From NCBI GenBank assembly GCA_025354985.1, contig JANXLU010000091.1:1-37609 (forward strand): a stretch of 37,609 nt of DNA, written 5' to 3'. The translations under genes were made by a program, and so were the position numbers. Shown piece after piece: positions 3,804 to 31,904 of the stretch. The stretch is from Chloroflexota bacterium (GTDB lineage Bacteria > Chloroflexota > Anaerolineae > J036 > Brachytrichaceae). Below the pieces are notes generated by a model that was given only the letters and a program-made list of their open reading frames with translations, did no database searches and was not told where the DNA came from. The number at the start of each line of letters is the position of its first letter. Within the stretch, counting starts at the first letter, position 1.

Positions 3804-3804
3804 T

Positions 3805-4236: not shown

Positions 4237-4272
4237 GAACCATTCGGTAACAATCAAATAATCAAGCAAAAT

Positions 4273-12695: not shown

Positions 12696-15600
12696 ATGCT
12701 GAAGATACAAAAATTCCGGTTTACATCATTTGTACTGTCGTCAATGATGGTCGCCAGCGCCATTGGTGCGCCCTCGGCAACCACCAGCGTCCTGGCGGGT
12801 AGCGCTGCGAAGCCAGCTGCGGCCAGTTCCTCACTCCTGCGTATTCGCGTGGAAAGTGCGCGTGATTGGATTCCGGCGGGTCTTCACAAGGGTGATTCCG
12901 TGCCTACCTATCACTGGATGATTGTTCAGGATGACACCGGTGACGCCAGTCGTTATGGCATAAATCTGCCCGCAACTGATCCACAAAACTCCAATTACGC
13001 TTGTAAAACTCAGGCGCTTGGCGGCGATCCGCTCTTTCCGAGCAATTGTCAGTGGCCGGGGATGCATTCCGTTGTTGGTGGGACCAGCGCTTCCGTGGTC
13101 GCCCAAGGTGATCAGACCACGTTGAGCGATGTTGTTAGTATCGATACCTCCCCGTGGATCGCCAACGAGCGCAACCCCAACAAGGGCTATATGATTTCGG
13201 TGATTGCCGATGGCTACACGGTGCCCAACTGCACGGTAACGGCGACAGTTACGTGCCAGGTGGATGGATTTAAGATTGGCGGCGCTTGGTTTACGTCGCC
13301 GATAGAAAATGATGGTCTGGTTCGCGTGCCCGTGCAGCCCTATCCGCTTCCCTTGGCAACCGTGCGCATGAAGGCTTGGAACGACCTCCAGACCAACGGC
13401 GCGTATGACACTGGTGAGCCCGCCCTTGCCGGCTTTGAAGGGCATATTGGGGACGTGCTTGGCCCCATCCTGACCGACTGGTACGGTGATCCAATTTGCT
13501 CCACCTATCAGCACGATCAGGTTGCAGTATCCACTGCAAACACCGATGCAACCACGAATGGATTCGGCACCGTGACGTCAGCCGGACCCGCCACATTAGC
13601 CACGTCGTCAAAGGCGTGGATCGATAATCAGTGGGAGCTGTATCAGGTTGTCGTCACGGATACCTTGGGTGTCACGGAAACACGCAACGTGGTTGCCAAT
13701 ACGGGCACCGGCATCACCGTAGATGTGCCATTTACAATCGTGCCGCGCACCTATGGAATTGGGCATGGTCTGATGATCTACGGGAGCAACGGCAAACCGG
13801 TGATTTCATTGATTGGCGGTCACTGTCTATCCGATTCGGACGGTGTGATTTCCATTCCATATCTTGGGCCCAACCGGTATGTTTCAACGGTGACGCCACC
13901 CAATGGGCAGGAGTGGTTTCAGACCAGCACGCTGGAAGGCTGGCATGACTGGGACACATGGACGATTGAAGGCTGGAACGGCTACGATCCGGAGTTTGTA
14001 CAGGGCGCCGAGCCCTTCCCATTCGCCGAATTTGGTTTTGTACAGATTCAAACCGGAGCAAATCCTTCAACTAAAAATTCGACCGTTTGTTGCAATTACC
14101 CGACAAATCCCGCTGGAACTGGAGCGATTCACGGCAGCGCGGCCGGCATCGGCGAGTATTCGCCACAGGTGGCTGGTCTGGGTTTTGGCGGTTTGGGCAA
14201 GCAAATTATCGAGAATATCAGTAGGCCGCTTGTTTCCTTGATCGACACCGGCCGCAATGACAACACGGTCTATATCGGTCGGGGCAACGCAGACGGCACA
14301 TTTGACATTACCAATATTCCAGACGGTGATTATGTCCTGGCCGTTTGGGATGAGGACCAGGCATATCTGCTCAACCAAGCCAACGTCAGCATCGTTAATG
14401 GCGCACAGTTGGACATGGGGGTGATGGACATTGCGGCCTGGCACAGTCAGGTGTCCGGTAAGGTTTGCTTTGACACCAACCGCAACGGCAAGTGCGACCC
14501 GGGTGAGCCTGGGATTCCCAGATTGACGCTCAATCTGCTTGATCGTGACAATAAGGTGGCCTTTTATGGTGATACGGCTGCCACGACCGATAACGATGGC
14601 CATTATGCATTTCCCCGCACCTATCCTCTGGGTCAATGGGTGGTAAGCCAGGGTTATTGGGAAAATTACTATACCGTCGGCGTAACCTATCAGACGGAGA
14701 ACCAACCGACTGAGACAACCACCATTGCACGCGGCGGATTTGTAGACGTCAGCTCGTATAACCTTATCGGGCATCAGACGCGGATGGACTGGGCTGTTCA
14801 TACGTATGAATCTGATCCCAGTCTTGGACCCGTTACTGGTGGCATCGTAGGAGAGGTAGTCGCCACCACCACCCGCAATGAGCTGGATGCGCGCTTCCAA
14901 GCTGTGGAATCCTACGAGCCCGGTTTGCCGGGCGCAACCGTGCACCTATTTGCACCGGTCAAGTGCGTGGTTGCAGATACACCACCCGCGGGCACCGCAT
15001 GCACGCAGGTGACGACCAACTTTGGTTCAGCGTATTACCTGACCGACTCTACGAATGGGTCGCTCAAGCGCTTGTCTGATGGTCCGGATAAGGTCTCCGG
15101 CAGCCCAATTGATCTTTTCCCGACCTATACCAGCGAAACTTGGCAGCGCCCCACCGACTGTGTGGCGCGTGGTTATGGCGGCGTGCCGGTTGTGGAGCAG
15201 GTGCTGCCAGTCGGCCCTGGGCATGACTGTCTTGAGGCGCCCTTGATGTCAAGCCAGGTGGGGAACAACGAAGTTGGACCATTTATGCAGGTGAACGGCA
15301 ACTATGGCTTTACCGCCATCGATCATGATCCAAACACAGGCGCGCCCATTGTCGGTGATCCGATCACCATTGTTCCGGGAGATTACATTGTTTACGTAGA
15401 GCCGCCCAAGGATGCGGCTGGCAACCCGGCGTTTGAAGTGGTCAAGGAAGAGGATATCAACATCTTCAGCGGTGATCTATTTGTTGCACCCGGCGAGAGT
15501 CGGTTGGATCCGCCCCTGCCAAACCGCACCCCGCCGACCAATATCGCCCCGGCCATTCCACCGTTTCCGTGCGTTGGCCCGTTGCACACCGTAAATGTAG

Positions 15601-18600
15601 TCGATGACAGGTCTCTGGCCAACTATCAGATCGCGGATCCTTCGAACACTCATGGTGTCTACAATCCCGATATGGCTGGCGCGGGTAGCCCGTACGAGGG
15701 TCTGCGCATGCCGCTGTGCGATTCGCGTCTGGTCAGCGTGCGTAATGGTCGTTCGGCCACCCCAAACTTTCACTTTAAAACCTTTAACGGGTTTGACGCA
15801 TCCGGCACTCAGCTGTCATCTGGTGCGGGTGTACCGCTTCCCGGCCGAATTTTCGGCATCGCGGTGGATGACCTGAACCTGTCGGTCAACCCCAAGGAGC
15901 TGTTTTACGGTGAGAAGTATGGCATTCCCAATCTTCCGATCGGCATTTACGACTTCTCAAATACGCTCGTAAAGACGATTCAAACCGATCCACAGGGGTT
16001 TTACGAGGTGATTTTGCCTTCAACGTCCAGCTATAACTGTCCGTTGCCAGCCGGTCCCTGCCCCGGGGTTTTCCGGTTTTTGGCGAATGATCCGGGCGTG
16101 CCTGGTCATCTGAATCCAAATTACAACCCGAGCTACCGCACCATCGGTGGTTTCTTTGAAGTGTGGCCCGGCGTAAGCCTGCCCTCCGACCTCGCACCAA
16201 CGCCCGTTGCGTTTGGTATCGAGAACCCCGGCAGCCAACAGACCCACCCGGCGGCTTGTTTGGTGAATGATCCGGCACATCCTGAGGCACCGCAAATTCC
16301 CGAACTGTATGCTGTTTCCAAGCCGGTTGTATTGGGCACCGACACGGGTGCGGCCCGTACGATCACGGTTAACGGAGTACACTTTGGCGTCGATGGCCGT
16401 GCCACGCTCGTATCGACGGGCGGAGCGTCTACAGTTTTGCAAATTTCCGGCGCGTGGTCGGATAATCAGATCACGGTGATTGTTCCGGATGTCAGCGGCA
16501 TCGCTCCCGGCCCCTATCAGCTAAAGATCACGAGCAGCAACGGGCAAGGCAACGGAAACGGCTTGACCATCCATGTGCTGGGCGGATCAGGCGCCACTGC
16601 CTACAATCCCACGGTATATCAGGTGGGCCCAGGTCTGACGGGTGCGCGCACCTTTGACCCAAATGCGGCCGCCCACAACACCAACGGCTACGAACATGCG
16701 ATTCAGGATGCCTTGGATGCTGCAGCATTGAGCCCCCAAGCCCTAGTAGTCGTCTATCCAAATTCCAGTGACACGTATAACCCGTTGGGTGCGTATTATG
16801 AAAACCTAATCATCCACTCCCCGCTCAAGTTGCAGGGTGTGGGTCCGGGTGGCGTTCTCGCAAGCGGTGTTCTTGTCAGTGGTACTGTGCTCGATGGCAT
16901 TGGTTATGGAACCGATAGTCAGCGTCAGACCGGTTGGCAGGCCACCATCAATTCTTTGGTTACCTCGTTGACCGGTATTGTTGGTCCAAACAACACGGCG
17001 CTGACAGATCCCGACCTGGCGATTGTTCCGGAAGGTGAAGTCATCCTTGCGCTGGCAACCGGTCAGAATCAATATGGTGCGACGTATAAGGGCGCCATTG
17101 ACGGAATGCTCATCCAGAATGGCGATGTCATGGACTTTGTGCCAAACGTCAACACATTGGGCAATGGCGCCCAGGTGGGAGGCGGCAATAACATTCCAGG
17201 CAACCCGAACCAGGGTGGTGGCATCGTGGCATTTGCGGCGACCAAAAACCTGCAGATCACCAACAACATCATCAAGAGTAACTCTGGCGCCTATGCCGGG
17301 GGCATCCGGCTGGGGACACCCTTGGTGGGAGACAACCACCTGGATGGTGTGCAGATCGCCAATAATCGTATTCTGAACAACGGTGGGACCAACCTGGCGG
17401 GAGCAGTCGGCATCTTTAACGGCGCCTACGGTTATGAGATCAATAACAATGATATATGCGGCAACTTCTCGTCGGAGTATGGTGGAGGCATCAGCCACTT
17501 TGGTCTGAGCGGAAATATGTTGAATGGCAGTCGCAGCACAAACGCCGCCAGTGTTCCGTCCGCCATTCATGACAACCGGATCTACTTCAACGGGTCCTAT
17601 GACGAGGGTGGCGGAATTCTGATTGCCGGGGAACCTCCCGCGACGCTTACGGGTGTATTCACTGGCTCGGGATCGGTCAACATCTATAACAACATCATCG
17701 AGGCCAACCTGGCGAACGATGACGGTGGTGGGTTGCGCTTCCTATCGGCTGGCAATTTCCCGTTCAACGTCTACAACAACATGATCGTCAACAACATCTC
17801 CTCGCACGAGGGTGGTGGTGTGGCGATTGACAATGCGCCGAATGTCCGGTTCTATAACAACACGGTGATGAAGAACCTGACCACGGCCACCGCGTCAACC
17901 AGCAGTGGTCAGCCCGCTCCGGCAGGGTTGTCCACCGCGTCAAACAACAGCTTCTTCCAGGCCACATTGCCCGCGGGTTCGCCGCTGTTTAGCAACCCGT
18001 TGCTGTTTAACAACATATTCTGGGATAACCGAGCCGGCACGTGGAATCCAACGCTTGGCCAGATCACCGGCATCGGTGGTGTTGATGCGGGCGGTGTTCC
18101 AGATCCCACAGCGATAAACATCTGGGATATCGGTGTACCGGATTCCGCTCCTGATCTCCTGGCCCCGACAAACTCTGTTATTGATCCGGGAAACGGAGGC
18201 CATCCCTACACTGCAAGCCCAACCAATCTCTCACTTGATCCCCAGGTTGCTCAGGTTTATACAACGACCGTACTGGCGCTACCATGGCGCGGCAACCCAA
18301 ATTTCGTCGCAAACACCATTGTTGCGCAGGACGTGCCGATTTCAATCATGGGTGACTATCACCTGGGGGGCATTGGGTCGTCGGCCTATAACAACGGTGC
18401 CGCTTCAAAGGCAGCGCCTTCGTATCAGCAACCCCCGGCATCGATTGCCGCACCGACTTTTGATATTGATCGGAACGCCCGGCCCGCGTTTAATGCGTTT
18501 GATATTGGCGCCGATGAAATTCCCAACGTTCAGGCCGATCTTCAAATTGCATTGACGGATGGGCTTAGTGCGGTTAACGCGGGAAGCGTCGTTCCCTATA

Positions 18601-20348
18601 CCATCACGATCAACAATCTGGGCCCCAACGCCGCGCCAGCCAGCGCGGTGGTGGACAACTTCCCAGCCAGCGTTGTGAGTGTGGCCTGGACCTGCACGGC
18701 ACCGGCCGGGTCAACGTGTGCGGTAGCGTCGGGAACTGGCAACATCAATACCCTCGTGAATCTTGGAGTCGGTGGTTCGGCCAGTATTGCGGCTTATGCG
18801 ACGCTCTCGAACGCAGCTTCCGGTACCCTGACCAACACCGCCACGGTCGCGGCTGCCGTCGGGGTTACTGATCCAAACCTTGGCAACAATAGCGCCACCG
18901 ACGTGGATACGATTCGCCCGGTTGCAGACCTTTCAATAAGCGTGACGGATAACGTGACAACTGTGGTGACCGGTCGCTCGTTGACTTACGTTATCAAGGT
19001 CAGCAACGCCGGACCCGGATCCGCTACTAATGCCGTTGTCAACAATCCCTGGCCCTCAGGTCTCAACTTGCCTAATCTCATTGCGTGGCAGTGTGTGGCG
19101 AGCACGGGCTCCGCTTGTAATGGAGCGCTTGGGCTTGGAGCTATCAATCGGACGATCAACGTTGCCGCTGGCGGTAGCGTGACGTTCACCACCATCGCCG
19201 CAACAGTGGCGGCAAATGCGACGGGCTTCCTGACGGATATCGCCACCGTCACCCCGGGCGCGACAACCTTTGATCCAAACCTTGCCAACAACACGGCCCA
19301 GGATGTGGACACCGTGCTGCAGCAGGCCGATGTTGCGGTTGCCAAAACGGACAATGTCACCGTGATCGCGGCGGGTGGTGTGTTCCGCTATAGCATCACC
19401 GTGAGCAATGCCGGCACCGGAGCAATAACCGGCGTGGCGGTTACCGACTTGTTCCCGGCAACTGCATCTGGCATATCGTGGACGTGCAGCGCCACCTTCC
19501 TTTCGAGCTGCGCTGCGGGTTCGGGAACGGGCAACATAAACACGACGGTCAACCTTGCCAACCCAACGTTCTTTACGCCGGGAACAGTGACCTTCGTTGC
19601 GACCGGTGTGCTGGCATCATCGGCCACCGGAACGTTTGCAAACACGGCAACGGTCGCGGTGCCCGCCGGTTTCACCGACACGAATACCAACAACAACTCT
19701 GCCACAGACACCGATTCGGTTGTCACACTACTGCCAGCGCTTCCGACGTTGACGGTGCTTGATAACTTCAACCGGGCTAATGCAGGCAACTTGGGTGCAT
19801 CCTGGAGCCAAAGCACCAACACCTCCGTAAATGGCAATCAGGCAGTGGGCGGTGGTGCAGGTGGAAACGCCATATACGGCACCCTATTCGGCGCCCAACA
19901 AGCCGCCGGGTTTACGTTTGCAAATAACCCGGCTAATAACACTGCGTTGATCCTGAAGGCAAACGCAGCAACGGCGCCCTCCACCTATATTCGGGTTCGT
20001 TACGCCACGGGTAACGGCGGTCAGGTCATTGTTGAGAGCACCACAAATTCAGGCGGAGCGTTTGCACCGGCTGCGACGTTCAACAGTCCGTTTGCAAATG
20101 GAGATACGCTTAGTGCCCTGGTCTCGGCAAGTGGCACAGTTTATGTCTATAAGAACGGCACCACGCCGGTTGGTTCCGTCCTTGTGAGCGGATTCACCGG
20201 CGCTGGGCGCATCGGAATGCAGATTCCGAATGGCCGTAGTGTAGATAACTTTAGCGGTGGAACGATTACGACGCCAATATTTGCCAGGGAGGCGGCCGAT
20301 CCGGCGCCGACTCAATTTGTAACCGTGTTGCCTTTGATCATTAACTAG
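12696..20348 (+). CDS. Giant secreted multidomain protein (SdrD-B, TIG, beta-helix, DUF11)
   Basis: A 2550-residue extracellular protein. After a signal peptide (about 1-36) comes an unnamed region rich in Trp, Pro and Cys. A prealbumin-like module is at about 220-260 and an SdrD-B-type module at about 586-690, with the calcium-loop-like DTNRNGKCDPGEPG. An IPT/TIG domain lies at about 1207-1297 and a long right-handed parallel beta-helix with many Asn-rich turns (YNN, INNN) at about 1300-1940. Three tandem DUF11 domains (about 1947-2072, 2073-2205, 2208-2347) each end in DPNLGNNSATDVDT-like text. A LamG-like jelly roll follows at about 2352-2527. The tail ends VLPLIIN. GGAGGAAAG gives a strong start. 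Three oxidase-like genes follow after 11 nt, so it is probably a surface scaffold or substrate-binding partner for them (inference). No catalytic motif was seen. Confidence 0.9.
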   Translation: MLKIQKFRFTSFVLSSMMVASAIGAPSATTSVLAGSAAKPAAASSSLLRIRVESARDWIPAGLHKGDSVPTYHWMIVQDDTGDASRYGINLPATDPQNSNYACKTQALGGDPLFPSNCQWPGMHSVVGGTSASVVAQGDQTTLSDVVSIDTSPWIANERNPNKGYMISVIADGYTVPNCTVTATVTCQVDGFKIGGAWFTSPIENDGLVRVPVQPYPLPLATVRMKAWNDLQTNGAYDTGEPALAGFEGHIGDVLGPILTDWYGDPICSTYQHDQVAVSTANTDATTNGFGTVTSAGPATLATSSKAWIDNQWELYQVVVTDTLGVTETRNVVANTGTGITVDVPFTIVPRTYGIGHGLMIYGSNGKPVISLIGGHCLSDSDGVISIPYLGPNRYVSTVTPPNGQEWFQTSTLEGWHDWDTWTIEGWNGYDPEFVQGAEPFPFAEFGFVQIQTGANPSTKNSTVCCNYPTNPAGTGAIHGSAAGIGEYSPQVAGLGFGGLGKQIIENISRPLVSLIDTGRNDNTVYIGRGNADGTFDITNIPDGDYVLAVWDEDQAYLLNQANVSIVNGAQLDMGVMDIAAWHSQVSGKVCFDTNRNGKCDPGEPGIPRLTLNLLDRDNKVAFYGDTAATTDNDGHYAFPRTYPLGQWVVSQGYWENYYTVGVTYQTENQPTETTTIARGGFVDVSSYNLIGHQTRMDWAVHTYESDPSLGPVTGGIVGEVVATTTRNELDARFQAVESYEPGLPGATVHLFAPVKCVVADTPPAGTACTQVTTNFGSAYYLTDSTNGSLKRLSDGPDKVSGSPIDLFPTYTSETWQRPTDCVARGYGGVPVVEQVLPVGPGHDCLEAPLMSSQVGNNEVGPFMQVNGNYGFTAIDHDPNTGAPIVGDPITIVPGDYIVYVEPPKDAAGNPAFEVVKEEDINIFSGDLFVAPGESRLDPPLPNRTPPTNIAPAIPPFPCVGPLHTVNVVDDRSLANYQIADPSNTHGVYNPDMAGAGSPYEGLRMPLCDSRLVSVRNGRSATPNFHFKTFNGFDASGTQLSSGAGVPLPGRIFGIAVDDLNLSVNPKELFYGEKYGIPNLPIGIYDFSNTLVKTIQTDPQGFYEVILPSTSSYNCPLPAGPCPGVFRFLANDPGVPGHLNPNYNPSYRTIGGFFEVWPGVSLPSDLAPTPVAFGIENPGSQQTHPAACLVNDPAHPEAPQIPELYAVSKPVVLGTDTGAARTITVNGVHFGVDGRATLVSTGGASTVLQISGAWSDNQITVIVPDVSGIAPGPYQLKITSSNGQGNGNGLTIHVLGGSGATAYNPTVYQVGPGLTGARTFDPNAAAHNTNGYEHAIQDALDAAALSPQALVVVYPNSSDTYNPLGAYYENLIIHSPLKLQGVGPGGVLASGVLVSGTVLDGIGYGTDSQRQTGWQATINSLVTSLTGIVGPNNTALTDPDLAIVPEGEVILALATGQNQYGATYKGAIDGMLIQNGDVMDFVPNVNTLGNGAQVGGGNNIPGNPNQGGGIVAFAATKNLQITNNIIKSNSGAYAGGIRLGTPLVGDNHLDGVQIANNRILNNGGTNLAGAVGIFNGAYGYEINNNDICGNFSSEYGGGISHFGLSGNMLNGSRSTNAASVPSAIHDNRIYFNGSYDEGGGILIAGEPPATLTGVFTGSGSVNIYNNIIEANLANDDGGGLRFLSAGNFPFNVYNNMIVNNISSHEGGGVAIDNAPNVRFYNNTVMKNLTTATASTSSGQPAPAGLSTASNNSFFQATLPAGSPLFSNPLLFNNIFWDNRAGTWNPTLGQITGIGGVDAGGVPDPTAINIWDIGVPDSAPDLLAPTNSVIDPGNGGHPYTASPTNLSLDPQVAQVYTTTVLALPWRGNPNFVANTIVAQDVPISIMGDYHLGGIGSSAYNNGAASKAAPSYQQPPASIAAPTFDIDRNARPAFNAFDIGADEIPNVQADLQIALTDGLSAVNAGSVVPYTITINNLGPNAAPASAVVDNFPASVVSVAWTCTAPAGSTCAVASGTGNINTLVNLGVGGSASIAAYATLSNAASGTLTNTATVAAAVGVTDPNLGNNSATDVDTIRPVADLSISVTDNVTTVVTGRSLTYVIKVSNAGPGSATNAVVNNPWPSGLNLPNLIAWQCVASTGSACNGALGLGAINRTINVAAGGSVTFTTIAATVAANATGFLTDIATVTPGATTFDPNLANNTAQDVDTVLQQADVAVAKTDNVTVIAAGGVFRYSITVSNAGTGAITGVAVTDLFPATASGISWTCSATFLSSCAAGSGTGNINTTVNLANPTFFTPGTVTFVATGVLASSATGTFANTATVAVPAGFTDTNTNNNSATDTDSVVTLLPALPTLTVLDNFNRANAGNLGASWSQSTNTSVNGNQAVGGGAGGNAIYGTLFGAQQAAGFTFANNPANNTALILKANAATAPSTYIRVRYATGNGGQVIVESTTNSGGAFAPAATFNSPFANGDTLSALVSASGTVYVYKNGTTPVGSVLVSGFTGAGRIGMQIPNGRSVDNFSGGTITTPIFAREAADPAPTQFVTVLPLIIN

Positions 20349-20359: not shown

Positions 20360-21799
20360 ATGAGAACATCACTTTTGTCGAATAAGTTCAATCGGCGCCG
20401 GCTCCTGAAGTTGAGCGGTGGCGCGCTGGCGGCCATGGCGGGTGCAAGCATCGCACCCGCCTGGTCGGGCCGGTTTCTAAAGCCGGTTTCTTCGGTTGAG
20501 GCCGCCACCCTGCAATCACCCCGGCCGACGATCTACAGGCACTTTATCGCCTCGGACGGTTGGATTTCGATCCCAACGGGCGAGCTCAAGAACGAGCAGG
20601 GCGTCGTTCTGGCTCCCGACGCACTGGCTCCTACTGGAAAAAGCACCTATGTGTTCGGGTTCAGGGATATCACCGATCTGGAAGGAGGCACGGCGGTGGC
20701 CACACCCGCCAACACCACCGATGCGCGCGTTCTGGCCCAGAAGGGCAACGTGCAGCACTCCGCGCCGCAGATGTTCTTTGATGAAGGTGACGCAATTCAG
20801 ATCACTTTGTCGAACCTTGGCTTCGCGCTTCGCCCGGACTTGTTTGACCCACACACGATACATTGGCACGGCTTTCGCAATGCGCTGCCGCTGTTCGACG
20901 GTGTGCCCGAAATGTCCATTTCGGTTGCGGTTGGCCGCTCGTTCCCCTATTACTATCATCCGACCGACCCGGGCACGTATATGTATCACTGCCACAACGA
21001 AGACGTTGAGCACGTCCAAATGGGTATGGACGGCATCGTGTTTGTTCGCCCCGCGCAAAACCGGACGGGCAACGGTGCCGGTGCACCTGTAGCGAGGGGT
21101 TACGTCGGCGGCGCACCAACCGCTCCGATGGGTTATGTTTACAACGATGGTGTGGCGTTGAACGATCGCCGTTCAACAGCCTATGACCGCGAGTTTGGCA
21201 TATTCCTAAATGAAATGTGGGCACAATCGCACTTTGATGACGCCCATATTCAAACCAGCGACTGGAGTGACTTTCACGCCGATTTTTATCTGATGAATGG
21301 TCGCTCCTATCCCGATACGCTCGCACCCAATGGTGGCGGTCTTGATTTGTCGAGTGGCAGTTTGGTCGCACCGGTTGGACGGCCTGATCTGGATTCCCAG
21401 CCGCTTTCATCACTTATCCAGTGCTGTGCCGGGGACAAGGTGTTGTTGCGCTTTGTAAACCTGGGATACACGCAGCCGGCCATGAAGTTGGCCGGCATCC
21501 CCATGCGGATCGTGGGCAAGGATGCCACGCCACTGCGCGGCCTTGGCACGGGTGGATTGCGCAATGGTGCAGACACCAGCTACAAAACCAATATGATTTA
21601 TATGGGTGCGGGTGAGAGCTATGACGCGATCTTCACCGCGCCACCCAAGACCGGGGCCGGCTACGACACCTATCTGCTGTTTAACAACTCGTTGGGCGCC
21701 CTGAATAAACCGGGCGGAACCGGTTTGGGTGGCCAAATGACCGAAGTCCGCGTTTATGCGGCGGGCGCCTTGCCTGCGCAAACCGCGCCAAACACCTAA
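20360..21799 (+). CDS. Multicopper oxidase-like protein A (active domain 1)
   Basis: A 479-residue exported oxidase subunit with a twin-arginine signal (NRRRLLKLSGG). Domain 1 carries HTIHWHG (H165, H168, H170) and YHCHNEDVEHVQMGM (H210, C211, H212, H218, M223). That is a complete type 1 copper set (H165, C211, H218, M223) plus four His of a trinuclear centre, as in two-domain oxidases with type 1 copper in domain 1. Domain 2 keeps the cupredoxin framework (LLRFVNLGY...GKDATPL), but where HPxHxHG is expected it has TQPAMKLAG, and the final HxH region reads LFNNSLG. It therefore cannot build a trinuclear site from its own kind. Protein B, next in the operon, has the missing half. GGAAAG precedes the start. 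Confidence 0.9.
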   Translation: MRTSLLSNKFNRRRLLKLSGGALAAMAGASIAPAWSGRFLKPVSSVEAATLQSPRPTIYRHFIASDGWISIPTGELKNEQGVVLAPDALAPTGKSTYVFGFRDITDLEGGTAVATPANTTDARVLAQKGNVQHSAPQMFFDEGDAIQITLSNLGFALRPDLFDPHTIHWHGFRNALPLFDGVPEMSISVAVGRSFPYYYHPTDPGTYMYHCHNEDVEHVQMGMDGIVFVRPAQNRTGNGAGAPVARGYVGGAPTAPMGYVYNDGVALNDRRSTAYDREFGIFLNEMWAQSHFDDAHIQTSDWSDFHADFYLMNGRSYPDTLAPNGGGLDLSSGSLVAPVGRPDLDSQPLSSLIQCCAGDKVLLRFVNLGYTQPAMKLAGIPMRIVGKDATPLRGLGTGGLRNGADTSYKTNMIYMGAGESYDAIFTAPPKTGAGYDTYLLFNNSLGALNKPGGTGLGGQMTEVRVYAAGALPAQTAPNT

Positions 21800-21844
21800 A
21801 TATCCCGTCTTGGAAGAACGGAAATGAGCAAAGGAGAAGCAAAT

Positions 21845-23188
21845 ATGCACACCTTGAATCAGAAAATAAACCGACGGGGTCTCGCGGTGGCAGCAGGCAC
21901 ACTTTTGTGTGTCATGACGCTCGTCCCAAATATTAGAGCCACGGCGGCCGGGCCAACCTCGGGCATCGTCTGCTCGACCAGCACCGGCACCACGCCCAGC
22001 TTTTCATTGACGGCGGGTGCGGATTACATTCAAATGCCCGATGGCAACACCATGTGGACTTGGAGCTTTGGCCCAACTGGTGGGGTATTCCAGTTCCCGG
22101 GACCCGTGCTTTGTGTCAACCAGGGTGACACGGTAACGGTGGTGCTTAATAACAAGCTGCCGGAAGCAACATCGATCATGTTCCAGGGGATCGAAGGCGT
22201 GCTCGCAAACGGCGTGCCTGTTCAACCGCAATTCACCGGGCCAAAATTGACCTCACTGGTAAACACGGCGGCGCCAAATGGCAGCGTGACGTATAGCTTT
22301 GTTGCCAGCGAACCCGGCACATTTCTTTATGAAAGCGGTACCAATGTGGGCAAGCAGGTGCAGATGGGTCTGTATGGCGCCCTGGTTGTTCGCCCACCTG
22401 CCGACGTCGCAACCGGATTGCCCCGGGCCTATGGTCCGGGCACGGAGTACCTTCCCAACACCGAGTTTGTATTGCTGTTGTCGGAAATGGATCCAAACCT
22501 CCACTCCGCGGTTGAGCTGAATCAGCCCTACGATGTCACCACGCTCCATCCGCGGTATTGGCTGATAAACGGGCGGTCGTTCCCGGACACCATCGCGCCA
22601 AACAACGCGGCCTGGTTGCCTCATCAGCCGTATGGTGCGCTGGAGCACCTTACGGTGCAAGATCTCAATACGCCGGATCCGAACAATCCGAACAACGCAC
22701 CCGCTTTGATTCGCTATTTGAATGCCGGCTCGCGCAACCACCCGTTTCACCCACACGGTGAGAATGGTCGACTGATTGCGCGGGATGCCACGCCGCTGCT
22801 CGATGTCGGTGGTAACGATCTGTCATACGAGACCTTCTCATTCAACATCGGCTCGGGCCAAACATGGGACCAAACGTATCATTACGACAATCAGGAGCAC
22901 TTTGATGGTGCACTCAATCCGGTTCCTGTGACAATACCCCAGCTGATGAACCTTGAGTTCAAGGGCGCCGCGACCTACTATAGCGGTTCACCCTACCTGG
23001 GCCAGAAGGGTCAGCTTCCAGTCGCAGTGACCTCGTTCAACCAGTGCGGTGAATATTACATGGTTGCTCACAGCCATGCGCTCTACGAAGTGGCAAACTA
23101 TGACGCCGGATTCGGTGGCATGTTGACGCTTGAACGCATAGATCCAATTGCCGGTCATCAGGCGCCAGGAACCAATTGCACGCCATAA
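21845..23188 (+). CDS. Multicopper oxidase-like protein B (active domain 2)
   Basis: A 447-residue exported paralogue of A. I chose the ATG at 21845 because AGGAGAAG stands before it and a twin-arginine-like signal (NRRGLAVAAG) begins soon after. Domain 1 has lost its copper ligands: IMFQG (residues 111-115) replaces IHWHG, and LYESGTNVGKQVQMG replaces MYHCHNEDVEHVQMG. Domain 2 keeps NHPFHPHG (H299, H302, H304) and AHSHALYEV (H409, S410, H411). That gives four trinuclear-site His, with Ser in place of the type 1 Cys. This is what domain 2 looks like in two-domain oxidases carrying type 1 copper only in domain 1. It is the mirror image of A. Confidence 0.88.
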   Translation: MHTLNQKINRRGLAVAAGTLLCVMTLVPNIRATAAGPTSGIVCSTSTGTTPSFSLTAGADYIQMPDGNTMWTWSFGPTGGVFQFPGPVLCVNQGDTVTVVLNNKLPEATSIMFQGIEGVLANGVPVQPQFTGPKLTSLVNTAAPNGSVTYSFVASEPGTFLYESGTNVGKQVQMGLYGALVVRPPADVATGLPRAYGPGTEYLPNTEFVLLLSEMDPNLHSAVELNQPYDVTTLHPRYWLINGRSFPDTIAPNNAAWLPHQPYGALEHLTVQDLNTPDPNNPNNAPALIRYLNAGSRNHPFHPHGENGRLIARDATPLLDVGGNDLSYETFSFNIGSGQTWDQTYHYDNQEHFDGALNPVPVTIPQLMNLEFKGAATYYSGSPYLGQKGQLPVAVTSFNQCGEYYMVAHSHALYEVANYDAGFGGMLTLERIDPIAGHQAPGTNCTP

Positions 23189-23198
23189 GGAGACCATA

Positions 23199-26100
23199 AT
23201 GAAAAATTACATTCATCTCGAAGGTCTTTCAAAACTTGGTGTGCGCGTTGCCCGAAGCGCGACCATAACTGTCGCTGGGTTGGCGGCGGGCGTGGCCTTA
23301 GGCGGCCTTGTTGCATTTGCGGCGCCAACAGCAGCGCCTGGTCCCGTTGTGGGAATACCGTGCTCGCCAGGCTGTGACTTGTATGCCGTCACCGGAACAA
23401 TCAGTTTGCCGGGCGCCCCGGTCGCTGGCATCCCGATTTGGGGATACAACACCGTAAGCGCCACAGTAACGGCACCGGGTGGCCCGATCATCGTTGTAAA
23501 CGAAGGTGACCCGGTTGCAATCACACTTCATAACGTAAGTGTGCCGTCGGCCACGTCTTTGAGTATTGCCGGGCAGGATGTGATTCCCGACAGCGCTGGT
23601 GTGACGGCCGGAAACAGCAAGACGTATTCGTTTGCTCCAGGCGCGCTCAAACCGGGTACCTATCTGTATGAGGCCGGTCTGACTGCCGACGGGCCACGAC
23701 AGGTCGCCATGGGTCTCTATGGTGCGCTGATCGTGCGTCCTGCAGGTGCGCCCGGTCAGGCCTACGCCGACTCCGCTACCGCCTTTGATGACGAAGCCGT
23801 GCTTGTGTTGTCCGAAATTGATCCGGCATTCAATGCCGACCCGCTCGCTTTTAAGACAACCAGCTTCTTTGCCAAATACTGGCTAATTAATGGCAAGGCA
23901 TATCCCAATACGGATTTGATTCCCAGCACGCCCGGTGGGCGGGTCCTGTTGCGCTATATAAACGCCGGCCTGGTGCATCATTCAATGGCCGTCTCCGGTC
24001 TGCATCAGACGATTTACGCCACCGAAGCCCAAACACGCACGAATCCATTGCGTGTGGTGGCACAAACCATCCCTGCCGGTGGCACGCTCGATACGATTGT
24101 GACCATGCCCAGCATAACCCCGCCCGGCGGCAAGTATGCCTTGTTTGAGGCAGCCATGCATTTGGACAATGCGGGCGTGGGTGCCGATGCGATCGATTTC
24201 GGTGGCATGCTGACCTTCCTCACGGCATCGGGAACAGGGACCTCAACGCAAGGCCCGGTGACTTCCGATGTAAGCCTGTCGCCCAACCCCAGCAGCGGTG
24301 CATCCGGCGTGCTCGGCGGCCCGGTGACATTGGTTGCGACCATCACGGCGTCTACGGGTGGCGCAGTCGATGCCGCAGAATATTTTGTGGATGGCTTGGG
24401 CGTCAACGGTTCCGGTTGCGCAATCAGCGCACCGTTTACTCTGGCGAGCACGCTCATTCCGGTATCCGGCGCCACTTCGCCATGTGTTGATTTGACGACA
24501 TTGACGGCCGGGCGTCACATGTTCTATGTGCACGGACACAACGCAAATGGTTGGGGCGCCTTTGCATCCGCATCACTGATGCTGGCCAAGAGTGGCCCGG
24601 TCGTGAGTGGTGTGTATATGGTTTCCAATCTGGTCAATGGCACGACAGATGTTGTGCTGCGGGCGACTGGCACAACCATCGATCCGCTGATCGTGGATCA
24701 GGCGGAATACACGATCGATGGCGGCGCGCCGGTGGCGATGAGTGCCGAGGCGCCAACTGCCGCAGTATCCAGCCTGGTCGTGACGATACCGGCAGCAACA
24801 ACGCTCGCGTTGCCGGAGGGTAACCACATCGTTGGCGTGCGCGCGCATGACACATCTGATACCTGGGGTGCCGTAACAACCGCGACCCTTGTCGTTGACA
24901 AGACCGGTCCAAGCGTCAGCAATGCCTTTGCCAACCCGCCAGCCACAAATGGCACCACGGGTATTCAGGCCGGCAGCGGTGGCGCCTTCTACGTGCGCTT
25001 GCAAGCCACGTTTAATGATCCTGCCGGTATTGCCGCGGCGGAATACTTTGTGGGAGCACCCGGGCCTAACGGAACGGGGCAGCTCATGCCCTCGGTGGCC
25101 GGCGTATATTCTGGCATATCAGTCACATCCTATGCTCTATTGGACATGCCAGGTTTGGCCGCGCTCAGTGACGGTCCAAATACCTTCTTTGTCCACGCCC
25201 AGGATGCGGCTGGAAACTGGGGACCCACTACGGGCATCGTGGTCATTATTGATCGGGTTGGCCCAACCACCTCAAACATCGTGTTTACGCCGGTTGCGGC
25301 CAACAACCGTTCCGTAGCTGTCAGCGCCTCCGCGTCCGACGTTGCAACCGGCAACAGCAACATCGCGGGCGGTGAATTCTTTGTGGATACCATTGCGGCA
25401 AGTGGAACCGGCACGGCGATGACAGCAGCCACTGTGGCGCCCACATCGGCCATAAACGGATCCATGCCTGCAGCCACTGTCAGTGCGTTAACACCCGGCA
25501 ACCACACTGTCTATGTTCATTCAATTGACATCGCCGGCAACTGGGGTCCAACGATTCAGAAGACCTTATTGGTGGATCGCACCGCTCCAACCTTCACCGG
25601 CATTACCCTGAATCCGACGTCGATCGCTTCTGGCACGGCGTCAATCAACCTCACGCTAAACGGTGCAACCGATCCGCTCGTTGGTGGGCTTGCCAGCGGG
25701 GTGGTCGGAGGTGAATACTGGTTTGGCAATACGAACATTGCAGCAGGAACCGGGACGCAGTTTGTCGGCACGACCAACGTGCCAATTGCCACGGGCGCGT
25801 TGTTGCCGGGCACCTACACCGTCCGAGTGCGCATCGTCGATGCGGCCGGTAACTACAGCACCGGCAACAGTGGTGTTCGGACGGCGACGTTGACGGTCAC
25901 CGGCCCGGCAGTGCCTTGGAGCTTCGCGAATGGCTTCGAGACCGGACCACGACCATGGGGTTGGTCTTCGACCTCGACCAACAACACCGGCCGACTAGAC
26001 GTCACGGCGGCTGCGCTGCGTTCGGGCACGCTGGGTCTGCAGGCGCGGGGGAACAACAACAACTACGTTCAATACACGTTTGGCGCCAACCCGGTAAACG

Positions 26101-26507
26101 TATCAACCCTGGACGCACGCTTCTACTTCAATCCGAACAACAACTCTAATACCGGTGGAAATACGGAGGATATCTTCGTTGGCCGGTCGGGTGGAACTAC
26201 GTTGTTCCATGTGCGGTATCGCCAAATTGGCGGCCAACCTCAGGTTCAGCTGCAGGTTGGTAACACCAACAACGGTGCCTGGGTCAATATCACTAACAAT
26301 GCCTTCAACTACATTGAAGTGGTGTATGTTTCCGGAGCGTCCTTGAACCTGTATGTGAATGGAAACACCGCCGTGCAGACGTTGTCGCCTGGAACTGCGA
26401 ATGTAGACTCGTTCAGACTTGGTTCCGTCGTAGGGGGCAATCAAAACACGCTTGAATTCTTTGATGACTTCAGCGCCGATGCGGATGTCGCACTGATTGG
26501 TCCATAG
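23199..26507 (+). CDS. Copper-less oxidase-like protein C with Ig-like and LamG-like domains
   Basis: A 1102-residue exported protein. The start at 23199 follows AAGGAG; the longer frame back to 23148 overlaps gene B. A hydrophobic export signal (about 18-46) lacks twin arginines. Two cupredoxin domains (about 60-180 and 195-365) align with those of A and B (LSEIDPAF..., KYWLINGKAYPNT) but have no copper site: SLSIAGQ, YLYEAGLTADGPRQVAMG, HHSMAVSG and FEAAMHLDN stand where ligands should be. Then come five tandem Ig-like repeats of about 110 residues (about 370-900), most ending in xVHxxDxAGNWG, and a C-terminal LamG-like jelly roll (about 905-1095). It has no LP tail. Probably the structural third subunit linking an A-B oxidase to the surface (inference). 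Confidence 0.87.
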   Translation: MKNYIHLEGLSKLGVRVARSATITVAGLAAGVALGGLVAFAAPTAAPGPVVGIPCSPGCDLYAVTGTISLPGAPVAGIPIWGYNTVSATVTAPGGPIIVVNEGDPVAITLHNVSVPSATSLSIAGQDVIPDSAGVTAGNSKTYSFAPGALKPGTYLYEAGLTADGPRQVAMGLYGALIVRPAGAPGQAYADSATAFDDEAVLVLSEIDPAFNADPLAFKTTSFFAKYWLINGKAYPNTDLIPSTPGGRVLLRYINAGLVHHSMAVSGLHQTIYATEAQTRTNPLRVVAQTIPAGGTLDTIVTMPSITPPGGKYALFEAAMHLDNAGVGADAIDFGGMLTFLTASGTGTSTQGPVTSDVSLSPNPSSGASGVLGGPVTLVATITASTGGAVDAAEYFVDGLGVNGSGCAISAPFTLASTLIPVSGATSPCVDLTTLTAGRHMFYVHGHNANGWGAFASASLMLAKSGPVVSGVYMVSNLVNGTTDVVLRATGTTIDPLIVDQAEYTIDGGAPVAMSAEAPTAAVSSLVVTIPAATTLALPEGNHIVGVRAHDTSDTWGAVTTATLVVDKTGPSVSNAFANPPATNGTTGIQAGSGGAFYVRLQATFNDPAGIAAAEYFVGAPGPNGTGQLMPSVAGVYSGISVTSYALLDMPGLAALSDGPNTFFVHAQDAAGNWGPTTGIVVIIDRVGPTTSNIVFTPVAANNRSVAVSASASDVATGNSNIAGGEFFVDTIAASGTGTAMTAATVAPTSAINGSMPAATVSALTPGNHTVYVHSIDIAGNWGPTIQKTLLVDRTAPTFTGITLNPTSIASGTASINLTLNGATDPLVGGLASGVVGGEYWFGNTNIAAGTGTQFVGTTNVPIATGALLPGTYTVRVRIVDAAGNYSTGNSGVRTATLTVTGPAVPWSFANGFETGPRPWGWSSTSTNNTGRLDVTAAALRSGTLGLQARGNNNNYVQYTFGANPVNVSTLDARFYFNPNNNSNTGGNTEDIFVGRSGGTTLFHVRYRQIGGQPQVQLQVGNTNNGAWVNITNNAFNYIEVVYVSGASLNLYVNGNTAVQTLSPGTANVDSFRLGSVVGGNQNTLEFFDDFSADADVALIGP

Positions 26508-26551: not shown

Positions 26552-26567
26552 CATGGAACATCGCGCA

Positions 26568-26608
26568 CGCTTGCAGCTCGTTACAAACGAGCTGCAAGCG
26601 TTTTTTTT
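26568..26608 (+). terminator. Terminator of the giant/oxidase operon
   Basis: CGCTTGCAGCTCGTT and AACGAGCTGCAAGCG form a perfect 15-bp stem with loop ACA, followed by eight T. This closes the 12696-26507 operon. From here to 26792 I see only a weak inverted repeat (AAACCG/CGGTTT near 26770). Confidence 0.95.
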
Positions 26609-26792: not shown

Positions 26793-28655
26793 TCACACCG
26801 ATCTCGGTTGCCGAACCGACCAAACAAACCTCACAGCAAGGAGCGCGGCAACAATCACGGCAAAGAGCATACTGAGCAGCGTCAGATCCGGCTCCCAGGC
26901 GGTATTTGAAATGACCACTGGACGCAACGACGCGCTTGGCATGATCCAGTCAAACGTTGATACCACATCTTCCAGCCCCGGGCGCCTGACAATGACATCC
27001 ACCTGCCAACGGCCGGAAAGGCTCATGTATGTTCCGCCTGCCTGAAACCGTGTCTTGTCAATCTTGGCCGCGTCCACCGTCACAACACCCAGATCGCTTT
27101 CCTTGCTTTGAATGCGCAGAATAATCCGGCCAACGGGTGCCGGTTCCGGGCGGCGGGTACTGGTGGCGTCGACAACAAACAGATTTTGACCTGGCAGGTT
27201 GGGCTTGACTGAAAATCCAATCAACATATCCTGGGCAATCTGGGTCGGCGACGTGTTCGCGGGTGGGGCGGCAAACTCCGGCCCATGCGCCGGCGCCGCG
27301 GATGTGACGATGCTGGTTGAGGTGAAAATCAGAATGCTCAGCAGCGACTCAATAACTATGGCCCGCGATGAGTGCACGGATTTGAACGTCCGGTTGCGCG
27401 GCCCGAGAAAGAATTTTGAAAGCGCCGACGTTGGGTGCAACCGCAGGGAGTTGACAAAGCCCAGACCAGCCACCAGGATGACGCACAGCAGCTTTACCAA
27501 TAGCGCCTGTCCATACAGCGTGCCGACCAGGGCATCAATCGTCTGCACCTGACGCGCGGTGTTATACAGACCGGTTGCCCCAATCAACCCCGCCCCGATC
27601 AGGGCCTGATTACTAAACGCACTCCAGCTTTTTGCGGCCTCCCCGGGTTGTGTTGACTGCTGAGATTGCATTACTGGTGTTACCGCCACCATAATCGCAA
27701 GTGCACCAATCCACAGACCGGCCGCAAAAATATGCGCGGATGATGATCCGATGGCAAGCACGGTATCCGGTGAGATACCGGCCGCATGGCCTATTGCGCC
27801 CTGTGCGATGCACAATCCAACTGTGAGCCCAAAGGCTGCAGCCAGGAAACCGCGCCGCAACGATTTGTTCGCCAGCAAAATCACCAGAAGACAAACGGCG
27901 ATAGCCTCGCGCGCCAGCCAAATGACGCCCCACTGGGTTTGGCCAAGCAATTGAAAAACCAAATCAGCCGGGTTTGCGGCGCCCGCCACCGAGCTTGTCA
28001 GAACGTTAACCTGCCAGAAAAGCCACGCGATCCCTACGACAATAAACACGACGATGCTGATCGCCGTGATCGACCATGCGCGACGTGACGCAGCAGCGCC
28101 GGTATTTCCACGTAATAGCCAGAACAACGCGCTAACGCCGCCGGTTATCAGCGCCAGCGAACCATACGTAATGATGCGCAGGGCAATCTCGACGGGCGCG
28201 GGTGGCGCATCTGCCTGCGGCTGGGCACCGGCACCCGCGCCCGGTTTTGCGTCTCCCACGCCAAAAACACTGTAATCTCGCGTGTAGTGACCATCTGCGG
28301 CCAGCACAACCCAACTTAGATTGTAGAGACCGGATGCCAGCGGTGCCGATCCGGCGATTTGAGCCGTCACGTGTCGCCGGTCATTCGCGTCAATCTTTAA
28401 CGGGCTAACCGGTACTGTTCGACCAGCCGAATCAATCAGTTTTATAGAACTGAAATCCGGCACGATCGGCTCGGTAAAGAAAAGTTCGATCTCACGCGGT
28501 GGATTTGCAACAGTACTGCCATCTATTGGCAGAACACGGACTATTTTTGCATGCGCAAATATCGAAGCGGTTTCGGCCAGCCCAAAAACGGCACTCAGCA
28601 CGATTGCGATGCAGGCACGTATCACCCGCCGTTTCGTAAGATTAAACACATTCAT
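26793..28655 (-). CDS. CopC-CopD fusion copper protein (YcnJ-like)
   Basis: A 620-residue membrane protein. The signal peptide ends at IFA, leaving His35 as the mature N-terminus, the first Cu(II) ligand of CopC. The CopC domain (35-135) retains LAADGHYTRDYSVFGVG with the second His. A CopD membrane domain (about 150-465) with about eight helices follows. The C-terminal part (about 490-590) is an extracellular beta domain resembling YtkA-like modules, then a last helix. CopC/CopD-type proteins bind and import copper. The gene converges on the copper-oxidase operon and is divergent from a lipoprotein and a second CopC, so it probably supplies copper for maturation of the oxidase (inference). 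Confidence 0.9.
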   Translation of the reverse strand: MNVFNLTKRRVIRACIAIVLSAVFGLAETASIFAHAKIVRVLPIDGSTVANPPREIELFFTEPIVPDFSSIKLIDSAGRTVPVSPLKIDANDRRHVTAQIAGSAPLASGLYNLSWVVLAADGHYTRDYSVFGVGDAKPGAGAGAQPQADAPPAPVEIALRIITYGSLALITGGVSALFWLLRGNTGAAASRRAWSITAISIVVFIVVGIAWLFWQVNVLTSSVAGAANPADLVFQLLGQTQWGVIWLAREAIAVCLLVILLANKSLRRGFLAAAFGLTVGLCIAQGAIGHAAGISPDTVLAIGSSSAHIFAAGLWIGALAIMVAVTPVMQSQQSTQPGEAAKSWSAFSNQALIGAGLIGATGLYNTARQVQTIDALVGTLYGQALLVKLLCVILVAGLGFVNSLRLHPTSALSKFFLGPRNRTFKSVHSSRAIVIESLLSILIFTSTSIVTSAAPAHGPEFAAPPANTSPTQIAQDMLIGFSVKPNLPGQNLFVVDATSTRRPEPAPVGRIILRIQSKESDLGVVTVDAAKIDKTRFQAGGTYMSLSGRWQVDVIVRRPGLEDVVSTFDWIMPSASLRPVVISNTAWEPDLTLLSMLFAVIVAALLAVRFVWSVRQPRSV

Positions 28656-29434: not shown

Positions 29435-29998
29435 ATGGACATCCATGGTTTCGGGCTTGGTCGCGGGGCGTTCCGGTTCAAACTGGTGGTCGCGCTGTTC
29501 GTACTATTCCTCGCAAATGCCGGTCTCGTGGCCGCTCACAGCGTAACGTTGCTCCGCTCCGAGCCGGTGGCCGGTGCCGTGCTCGATCAATCACCCAAAC
29601 AAATCGTCGCCAAGTTTTCCGAGGAGCTCAACCCCAACGGAAGCACGCTGCAAATCTTTACCGAACAGGATAAGCCCGTCGGGGACGATACAGGCAAATT
29701 GGATCTCAAGGATCTCGATCATGCCACTCTGGTGCTCCTGATCAGCAAACCCGTTCCGGATGGCAATTACCGCGTGAAGTGGCAGGCCACCCTGCTCGAT
29801 GGAGACAGCACCACCGGCGTCTTCGTCTTCACGGTTGGCAAAAACACCGCCCCGCCCAAGCCCATCCCCGCCGCTGTGGCGTCCGCCGCCGCCGCGGATC
29901 CATCCACCACCACCACCTTCCTCGCCATCCTCGGCGGCACTGCCGCTGTGATTGCCCTCGGGGTTGTTGCAGTGACGGTTGCAAAGCGGAAGAAATGA
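29435..29998 (+). CDS. Membrane-anchored CopC-domain protein
   Basis: A 187-residue protein: signal peptide cut after VAA, giving His35 as mature N-terminus, CopC domain (35-135, with LLRSEPVAGAVLDQSPKQIVAKFSEEL), an Ala/Pro-rich linker, and a C-terminal membrane helix ending AKRKK. CopC binds Cu(II) through the N-terminal His and a later DGH. Here the later motif reads DGDSTTG (D122-D124), so His is replaced by Asp and the site must be altered or lost. It is 4 nt from the lipoprotein gene. The other CopC in this cluster keeps its DGH. Confidence 0.88.
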   Translation: MDIHGFGLGRGAFRFKLVVALFVLFLANAGLVAAHSVTLLRSEPVAGAVLDQSPKQIVAKFSEELNPNGSTLQIFTEQDKPVGDDTGKLDLKDLDHATLVLLISKPVPDGNYRVKWQATLLDGDSTTGVFVFTVGKNTAPPKPIPAAVASAAAADPSTTTTFLAILGGTAAVIALGVVAVTVAKRKK

Positions 29999-30140
29999 AG
30001 TGTGTGTGTTCAGGTGAAGGCCGTGCTCAGGCACGCCCGTCAGGCGCGCGAATGCATCACACCCATGTCTCCCTTGCGTTACTAGGTCTGCAGTTGGCCC
30101 ACGCTCGCCTCTCGCCGTTTGATCGCCGTTGAGGCGCGCC

Positions 30141-31904
30141 ATGGTATTTCATCGTCTCGCCTCCCGCCTCCTGCTAACCCTGATCCTACTGATTACCCTG
30201 GGCACATCCCACGTCACGGTCGCTATCGACAACACACCGCCGGCGCCTGCCATCAGCGCTGAACTCGCCCGCCGCCCGCCACCCACCGGCATAATCGCCA
30301 GCGTCATCGTGCACCTCAAGGATCAGATAGATCCCCGCACCATCAAGGGCGCCGACAAACAAGAAAGACGCCGCAGTCTGCTGGCCACCCTGCAAACCAA
30401 GGCCGACACCACCCAGGGCTTCCTTCGCGCCTTGCTCCACACCCGCCGCACCGAGGGCCGCGTCACCTCGTTCACCCCGCTTTGGATCATTAATGCCATT
30501 GCCGTCACAGCCGATACCAGCCTCATCGCCGAACTCGCCGCCCGCCCCGAGGTTGACCGCATCGAGCCGGACGAGATCAGCATTCGGCCAACGGGGGGGC
30601 AGCGAGCCGCACTTTCCAGTCCACCTGAACCAAATATCGACCTGATAGGTGCGCCGCTCTTGTGGGCGGCCAGTTATAGCGGCACGGGTGTCGTCATTGC
30701 AAGTATGGATACTGGCGTGGATATTGGTTCGCAGAGCGATCTGGCCGCGACGTGGCGTGGCGGAACGAATAGCTGGTTTGACCCGTACACTGGCTCCACC
30801 ACTCCGTACGATGTAAATGGGCATGGCACCAACACCATGGGCCTGATGGTTGGCGGCACGGCGGGCGGCACCGCTATTGGCGTTGCTCCGGGTGCGCGAT
30901 GGATTTCCGCCAAGATTTTCCCGGACAGTGGCATGTTATCCACAAATTACATACACCAAAGTTTTCAGTGGCTCTTGAATCCGGGTGGTGACCCGGCGGC
31001 GGCACCAGATTTGGTTAACAACTCCTGGCAGATAACGACGGGTGCCTGCGATACCTCTTTCGCACCAGATATACAAAACCTCCTTGCCGCGGGGATCGTG
31101 CCAATATTTGCCTCAGGTAACGACGGTCCCAATGCTTCGTCCGCTGCCAGCCCCGCGAATAACCCGGGTGCCTTTGCCGTGGGTGCCACTGATAATAGCG
31201 ACCTTATCGCTACGCTCAGCGGCCGCGGACCGACAAACTGCCGTGCATCTCCAGGTTATTTCCCGGACGTTGTTGCGCCCGGCGTGGGCGTGACCACGAC
31301 GGATCTAAGTGGTAATTACTTGCAATGGTCGGGTACGTCCATGGCCGCTCCTCACGTCTCTGGCGGCATGGCACTTTTGCTAAGCATCAACCTCAGTTAC
31401 ACGGTCGCCCAGCTCGAGCATGCGATAACCACCACGATTGTGGACCTCGGTCCCTGCGGTCCGGACAACACCTACGGTGCCGGACGAATCAACCTCGTGG
31501 CCGCCGCGACTGCCTTGGCCGTGATCACGCCCACGCTTACCGCCACGCCCACATGTGTGCCCACCTTAACACCGACCGTGACACCGACCCGCACCCCCAC
31601 GCCCACCCGCACCCCAACGCCAACCCCCACGGTTACAGCCACGCCGACCGAAACGGGAACACCCACTCAAACATCTACACCAACATCCACTGCAACACCA
31701 ACCAGCACGCCCACGCAGACGGCAACAGTAACAATGACCTCAACCCCGACCACGACCAGCACTGCCACCGACACACCCACTCAAACTGCGACCAGCACGC
31801 CAACGCCAACGCCAAGCACCACCTCAACTGCCACACCGACCGTTACCGCCACCAAAACACCCAACCCGCATCTCGTTTATTTACCCGCAATCCGCCGAAA
31901 ATAG
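30141..31904 (+). CDS. Secreted subtilisin-like (S8) serine protease with Thr/Pro stalk
   Basis: A 587-residue exported protease. I use the ATG at 30141 rather than the in-frame TTG at 30129. A signal peptide (1-27) is followed by an I9-like propeptide (about 45-145). The catalytic domain has D190 (SMDTGVD), H228 (GHGTNTMG) and S400 (GTSMAAPHVSGG). Residues about 463-575 are a Thr/Pro repeat stalk (TPT units). The end, LVYLPAIRRK, is a short LP tail like that of the giant protein. The gene follows the CopC gene after 142 bp and is closed by a shared terminator. It may mature surface proteins, including those of the oxidase operon (inference). Confidence 0.92.
   Translation: MVFHRLASRLLLTLILLITLGTSHVTVAIDNTPPAPAISAELARRPPPTGIIASVIVHLKDQIDPRTIKGADKQERRRSLLATLQTKADTTQGFLRALLHTRRTEGRVTSFTPLWIINAIAVTADTSLIAELAARPEVDRIEPDEISIRPTGGQRAALSSPPEPNIDLIGAPLLWAASYSGTGVVIASMDTGVDIGSQSDLAATWRGGTNSWFDPYTGSTTPYDVNGHGTNTMGLMVGGTAGGTAIGVAPGARWISAKIFPDSGMLSTNYIHQSFQWLLNPGGDPAAAPDLVNNSWQITTGACDTSFAPDIQNLLAAGIVPIFASGNDGPNASSAASPANNPGAFAVGATDNSDLIATLSGRGPTNCRASPGYFPDVVAPGVGVTTTDLSGNYLQWSGTSMAAPHVSGGMALLLSINLSYTVAQLEHAITTTIVDLGPCGPDNTYGAGRINLVAAATALAVITPTLTATPTCVPTLTPTVTPTRTPTPTRTPTPTPTVTATPTETGTPTQTSTPTSTATPTSTPTQTATVTMTSTPTTTSTATDTPTQTATSTPTPTPSTTSTATPTVTATKTPNPHLVYLPAIRRK

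Follow-up and report, generated by a model that had tools for sequence, protein, structure and literature searches.

Two-domain multicopper oxidases are described as trimers whose copper sites lie between the protomers (PMC13151041), and six-domain oxidases are single chains in which at most one trinuclear site has been kept (PMC3600357). In the heteromeric Mnx complex, the partner subunits are not paralogues of the oxidase (PMC5622069). In the open-licence literature we found no two-domain oxidase with a site common to different gene products. A preliminary description of a Chloroflexota contig had claimed that three tandem oxidase paralogues, here A, B and C, together keep exactly one copper active site, formed between domain 1 (D1) of A and domain 2 (D2) of B in an obligate heterotrimer. 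From the comparison of related loci reported here, A and B most likely build a single active site between them, in a ring that C completes as third member, a reading to which we give a probability of roughly 70%.

The X-A-B-C unit of the source contig

The window, 37.6 kb long, is one whole contig of a 4.19 Mb genome that is 95.8% complete. Its features are listed below, where ‘live’ domains carry copper ligands, T1 is the type 1 (blue) copper site, and counts refer to alignments of 38 non-degenerate loci made family by family (A, B and C separately) and to a joint alignment of 40 triads with the single-gene relative L024. Residues of B are numbered from 21824; from its probable start, an ATG at 21845 preceded by AAAGGAG, they run 7 lower, which is the numbering of the preliminary description.

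12696..20348, plus strand: X, giant secreted protein of 2550 aa, which opens the conserved X-A-B-C unit
20360..21799, plus strand: A, 479 aa two-domain multicopper oxidase paralogue, with a live domain 1 and no ligands in domain 2
20852..20872, plus strand: A domain 1 motif HTIHWHG, with T1 ligand H165 and trinuclear ligands H168 and H170, each 38/38 and 40/40
20987..21028, plus strand: A domain 1 motif HCHNEDVEHVQMGM, with trinuclear ligands H210 and H212 and T1 ligands C211, H218 and M223, each 38/38
21824..23188, plus strand: B, 454 aa two-domain multicopper oxidase paralogue, with no ligands in domain 1 and the other trinuclear half in domain 2
22748..22756, plus strand: B domain 2 motif H309-P-H311, 38/38 and 40/40
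23069..23077, plus strand: B domain 2 motif H416-S-H418, 38/38
23199..26507, plus strand: C, two-domain multicopper oxidase homologue without copper ligands, with an Ig-like repeat tail
26567..26601, plus strand: strong intrinsic-terminator-like hairpin with a 16 bp stem and a T-run, 60 bases 3′ of C (consensus scan)
26793..28655, minus strand: CopC-CopD fusion (copper uptake), a neighbour outside the unit that recurs near triads
29435..29998, plus strand: CopC-domain protein (Pfam CopC 4e-14)

Pfam Cu-oxidase_3 is matched by A (E 1e-12), B (5e-13) and C (2e-7), Pfam and NCBIfam assign all three to the multicopper oxidase superfamily, and sequence comparison ranks the type C two-domain enzymes 3gdc, 2zwn and 3g5w among the best solved relatives of A. 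The A N-terminus (20360-20470) contains a Tat-type signal, NRRRLLKL. The start of C is the ATG at 23199 (the first listed start of the open reading frame is a TTG at 23148), and its two-domain part, approximately residues 18-370 of the listed frame, is followed by the long Ig-like tail. X matches SdrD_B-like and DUF11 repeats in Pfam, and its orthologues also match TIG, CarboxypepD_reg and right-handed beta-helix models. The gaps between X and A (11 bases) and between A and B (24 bases) are short, and the B stop overlaps AAGGAG, the ribosome-binding site of C, so that X-A-B-C looks like one transcription unit, with the terminator-like hairpin as its probable end. CopC-CopD homologues lie close to the triad in 12 further loci. 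Downstream of the copper genes, positions 30129-31904 encode a subtilase-family protease (mycosin-like match), and two adjoining Ser/Thr protein kinase genes occupy 33869-37599 on the minus strand.

One complete set of copper ligands per triad

In the family alignment of A, the eight domain 1 ligands listed above are present in all 38 loci, those of the second motif in the pattern H210-C211-H212-x5-H218...M221/M223. The B family keeps H309, H311, H416 and H418 in 38/38 loci with no further His conserved at 90% or above, and the C family has no conserved His at all (38 triads). In the joint alignment, seven D1 ligand columns are intact in 40/40 A proteins and are substituted in B (V/T, I/V/M, P, E/Q, S, G, Q) and in C (T/V, L/S, P/Q, E/Q, A/S, G, Q), with one stray H. 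The first D2 HxH pair is present in 40/40 B proteins and missing from A and C; the second pair of B sits after a B-specific insertion, outside the L024 columns, and was hence scored from the family alignment. T1 ligands occur in D1 only (H165, C211, H218 and M223 of A), with no Cys/His T1 pattern in the D2 of A, B or C. Eight trinuclear histidines and one T1 set, each found once per triad, thus match what one complete type C site needs.

The motif positions first described from the source contig are confirmed across loci, at the counts given above, as is the lack of ligands in A D2, B D1 and both C domains, which holds in all 40 non-degenerate loci; the claim that each triad has one full set of ligands and no more is likewise supported by 40 triads. 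A misaligned motif, which had been named as a finding that would speak against the claim, did not appear: nearly all A proteins have no HxH pair in D2, and two have a stray one at about residue 412. Conservation per domain is 0.56 for A1, 0.56 for A2, 0.61 for B1, 0.54 for B2, 0.44 for C1 and 0.49 for C2, so that the dead domains of A and B are as conserved as the live ones, pointing to a structural role and not to decay. This equal conservation, together with the presence of 41 loci in many genomes, rules out a pseudogene or assembly artefact.

Single-gene relatives from these genomes carry copper-ligand motifs in D1 as well as in D2. One of them, L024, a single protein of 368 aa with HTIHLHG, HCHEEAPEHIQM, HSHG and HDH, shows the ancestral state, with both half-sites in one protein.

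Distribution and co-occurrence

The 41 A-B loci, assembled from class profile scans (396 genomes), an earlier phylum scan and the individual loci L014, L015, L125 and L126, are spread over at least 15 Chloroflexota families and one Myxococcota MAG (L015). The A profile matches 30 of the 396 genomes of the class and the B profile 29; both match the same 29 genomes, and the extra A match, in G320, is weak. Considered as a possible A without B, this match (L071) proved to be an ordinary single-gene enzyme with live domains. Across the 396 genomes, the A and B profiles revealed no homologue with ligand loss but without a partner gene. The search that the preliminary description had proposed, for genomes holding the three genes with the same ligand pattern, thus returned 40 non-degenerate A-B loci, and the matching of the same genomes by the two profiles supports an obligate A-B partnership, with none of the partnerless homologues that would have counted against it.

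Gene order is X-A-B-C at all loci as far as the genes are visible, and A, B and C are everywhere separate reading frames, each with its own stop and start signal. C is visible in 38/41 loci, with contig ends in L015, L058 and L061. The contig of L015 ends right after B. Absence of C from L058 was rejected, as the gene was found on another contig of that genome, and so was its absence from L061, where the adjoining gene encodes a DUF11 protein that runs off the contig; in L060, from the same genus as L061, the C core begins only at residue 895, behind DUF11-type repeats. BLASTP places an X homologue directly upstream of A wherever sequence exists, including the Myxococcota MAG, L125 and L126, with L043 lying at a contig end. 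The X core of about 1600 aa (SdrD_B/TIG/beta-helix) has roughly 30-66% identity, and several Cys together with H1293 and H1889 are invariant in 26 orthologues. The nearest relative found, L014 from a Chloroflexota MAG, is 77% identical in A, 68% in B and 59% in the C core. Several units can occur in one genome: G660 has three diverged ones (L014, L125 and L126), G246 two in tandem and G589 three.

Complementary loss after duplication

In a tree rooted at midpoint, in which the C of L044 is short, A, B and C each form one clade (100/99, 100/93 and 100/100), and B and C are sisters (100/97). Since B and C also have the same D1 replacements (P/E/S-A/G/Q), the D1 site was lost once, in the B/C ancestor, and the D2 sites of A and C appear to have been lost separately. 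We propose that the gene of a homotrimer was duplicated and that one copy lost its domain 2 site, giving A, and the other its domain 1 site, giving the B/C ancestor, which would then have been duplicated again, with C losing the remaining site. Complementary loss after duplication, as originally suggested, is thus supported by both the tree and the ligand pattern.

A natural fusion, a degenerate triad and structure models

One locus, L107 (G185, 572-2866), consists of a single gene of 764 aa that encodes a pair of two-domain units followed, at the C-terminus, by a plastocyanin-like domain. In unit 1, D1 is live and D2 is dead; in unit 2, D1 is dead and D2 is live, and an end-to-end alignment of the protein with A-B pairs all ligands. 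The L107 units group together and with L024 (99/90), not with A or B, and their replacements differ, which indicates a parallel event independent of A-B-C. A neighbouring gene (2884-4128) encodes a protein that, by eye, resembles two cupredoxin-like domains.

Laccases form their trinuclear centre between D1 and D3. The AlphaFold model of L107, of moderate quality (pLDDT 67, pTM 0.71; other four models 53-55), whose alignment included A-B rows and which is accordingly not independent of the A-B sequences, superposes over model residues 8-605 on the three-domain laccase 6vow (Z 26.6, rmsd 2.7, 363/409 residues), and on 2xu9 with Z 25.8; in Foldseek it reaches a TMq of 0.47-0.51 with laccases vs 0.33 with factor VIII A1-A2. 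This superposition places D1 and the fourth domain (D4) of L107 where a joint site needs them, and the model thereby supports an interface between A D1 and B D2.

We also modelled A and B as an artificial single chain, reading in frame through the A stop (as Gly) with a 66-row alignment in single-chain AlphaFold, which gave a good model (pLDDT 82.8, pTM 0.81). Both domains of each half align to homotrimeric type C enzymes, the A half with VIA Z 28.8 to 3g5w and 28.5 to 2zwn, and the B half with 28.3 to 3gdc. The whole model matches six-domain oxidases and the heavy chains of factors VIII and V (TMq 0.43-0.48), including chains that hold only the successive units A1-A2 (4bdv_A, TMq 0.44; 9mot_A, 0.43), vs about 0.25 for three-domain laccases. 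Its match to successive-unit chains means that the model puts A D2 beside B D1, a dead interface, contrary to A D1 and B D2 as neighbours; the artificial linker or the covalent A-then-B order may explain this. Because neighbours in a quasi-symmetric ring are similar and the covalent order favours a sequential arrangement, we read the result as at most mildly negative. Covariation over 35 triads (Neff 30) is 2.19-fold for both A1-B2 and A2-B1 and so does not tell the two interfaces apart. The interface proposed in the preliminary description thus gains support from the laccase-like model of the natural fusion, with the read-through model pointing the other way, a mixed outcome.

A second informative locus is the degenerate triad L070 (G518, 583-4259), in which A D1 has LTIQWRG in place of HTIHWHG, HCR in place of HCH and Tyr in place of the T1 His, amounting to loss of H165, H168, H170, H212 and H218, and in which B has lost H311 (HPH to HTD). 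L070 appears to be a factor V-like inactive version in which both half-sites decayed at the same locus.

Proposed mechanism and alternative assemblies

In the mechanism we propose, X-A-B-C would encode an extracellular multicopper oxidase with a single active site split over two different subunits. Domain 1 of A would provide the T1 copper site and four trinuclear histidines (H168, H170, H210 and H212), and domain 2 of B the remaining four (H309, H311, H416 and H418). Electrons would pass from the substrate to the T1 copper of A and from there via HCH to the trinuclear centre, located where A D1 and B D2 meet, at which O2 would be reduced to water. C would most likely close a three-membered ring at the dead interfaces A D2:C D1 and C D2:B D1, and the Ig-like tail of C, together with the giant X, may tie the enzyme to the cell surface, X probably being a surface scaffold or a substrate. 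A twin-arginine motif is found in 37/39 A proteins, a loose form of the pattern in 4/39 B proteins and none in 36 C proteins, suggesting that A leaves the cytoplasm as a folded protein through the Tat system and that B and C take the Sec route; assembly of the shared copper site would then have to finish beyond the cytoplasm.

The shared A-B site is strongly supported, and we infer the A:B:C stoichiometry, the assembly, the activity and the electron path. How C takes part is the point on which another reading has some claim, namely that A and B share the site as a heterodimer or in an A/B-only assembly, and that C is a separate surface or scaffold protein of the same family descent. L107 has no evident third unit, and its model joins D1 and D4 without one, so that an A-B pair may work without C. 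Pairwise distances also correlate better between A and B (r 0.89) than between A and C (0.75) or B and C (0.79), and conservation is lowest in C, which lacks ligands and carries Ig-like or DUF11 tails that are long and of very variable length. Yet the two-domain core of C is complete, at about 350 residues, and C forms one clade and is found wherever it could be visible; in L125 it is nothing but a bare two-domain core of 331 aa, and the solved two-domain relatives are all trimers or multiples (PMC13151041). We therefore consider an assembly of A and B alone possible but unlikely.

If the ring were instead ordered as in six-domain oxidases, with A D2 against B D1 as in the read-through model, no trinuclear centre would form and the complex would be a non-oxidase like coagulation factor V. 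This would leave at least 11 invariant copper ligands without a purpose, the one truly inactive triad, L070, shows ligand decay in both A and B, and the natural fusion is modelled in the opposite arrangement, making such an order very improbable. Equally hard to credit are separate homo-oligomers, with A as a blue T1 electron carrier, B as a mononuclear or storage copper protein and C inert: each protein is indeed two-domain and from a homotrimer-forming family, but the four trinuclear His of A D1 (two of them flanking the T1 Cys) and the four of B D2 are all invariant and superfluous to either protein alone, the losses complement each other both in A-B-C and in L107, and A and B are never found apart in the 396 genomes scanned.

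Returning to the shared site with C in the ring, the fuller account, that A-B-C is an obligate heterotrimeric oxidase with one active site, produced by two successive duplications with complementary loss and kept across Chloroflexota and beyond, with L107 as an independent parallel, seems to us reasonably probable.

Comparison with known systems

The path from a symmetric enzyme to an obligate complex is usually argued from ancestral reconstruction. The heteromeric form, if true, would show this transition through the loss of redundant half-sites, with single-gene, fused two-unit and three-gene versions coexisting, and, given A-B-C and L107, would make the splitting of a shared metal site among duplicated ring subunits a repeatable evolutionary outcome. 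It could also hint at how six-domain oxidases retained one site of three. The A, B and C genes are likely annotated as ordinary oxidases, and any one of them expressed alone should be inactive. The fungal V-ATPase ring likewise went from homomeric to heteromeric by duplication and complementary interface loss; the principle is the same, but no catalytic metal site is split between subunits there.

Among copper enzymes, nitrite reductases, which combine T1 copper with a mononuclear T2 site of three His and have no HCH pair, can be set aside: A has HCH and HWH and B two HxH pairs, eight trinuclear histidines in all, and the Cu_nitrite_red model scores 28 and 37 bits against a cutoff of 296. The three-domain laccases differ in that A and B are two-domain reading frames, and the L107 model, though similar in arrangement, has four domains. 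The Mnx complex (MnxE, MnxF and MnxG) resembles A-B-C in being a bacterial multicopper oxidase that is encoded by several genes and is obligately heteromeric (PMC5622069), but there MnxG alone is the six-domain oxidase, and MnxE/F are not oxidase paralogues and supply no trinuclear ligands; the source locus has no six-domain reading frame. As in A-B-C, one of three trinuclear centres survives in ceruloplasmin, hephaestin, algal Fox1 and bacterial MnxG, which consist of three two-domain units (PMC3600357). Those six-domain enzymes are one polypeptide with the site at D1-D6 or D2-D3 and T1 copper in even domains, whereas here there are three genes and T1 lies in the N-terminal, odd domain.

The closest likeness is to the type C two-domain oxidases (mgLAC 2zwn, Nitrosomonas BCO 3g5w and 3gdc), which have the same fold as A and B and T1 in domain 1, and whose trinuclear centre forms where D1 of one subunit meets D2 of its neighbour, as expected here. 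Two cupredoxin domains per chain are seen in A and B by model alignment and in C by sequence alignment only, and the confinement of T1 ligands to domain 1 is that of type C. Known type C enzymes are homotrimers with three sites and both halves in every subunit; in the triad, A is without the D2 half, B without the D1 half and C without both, so that the halves lie on different genes with one site per triad. Judged by sequence, A-B-C would be a system derived from two-domain oxidases that departs from them in one defining feature, the presence of both half-sites in each subunit.
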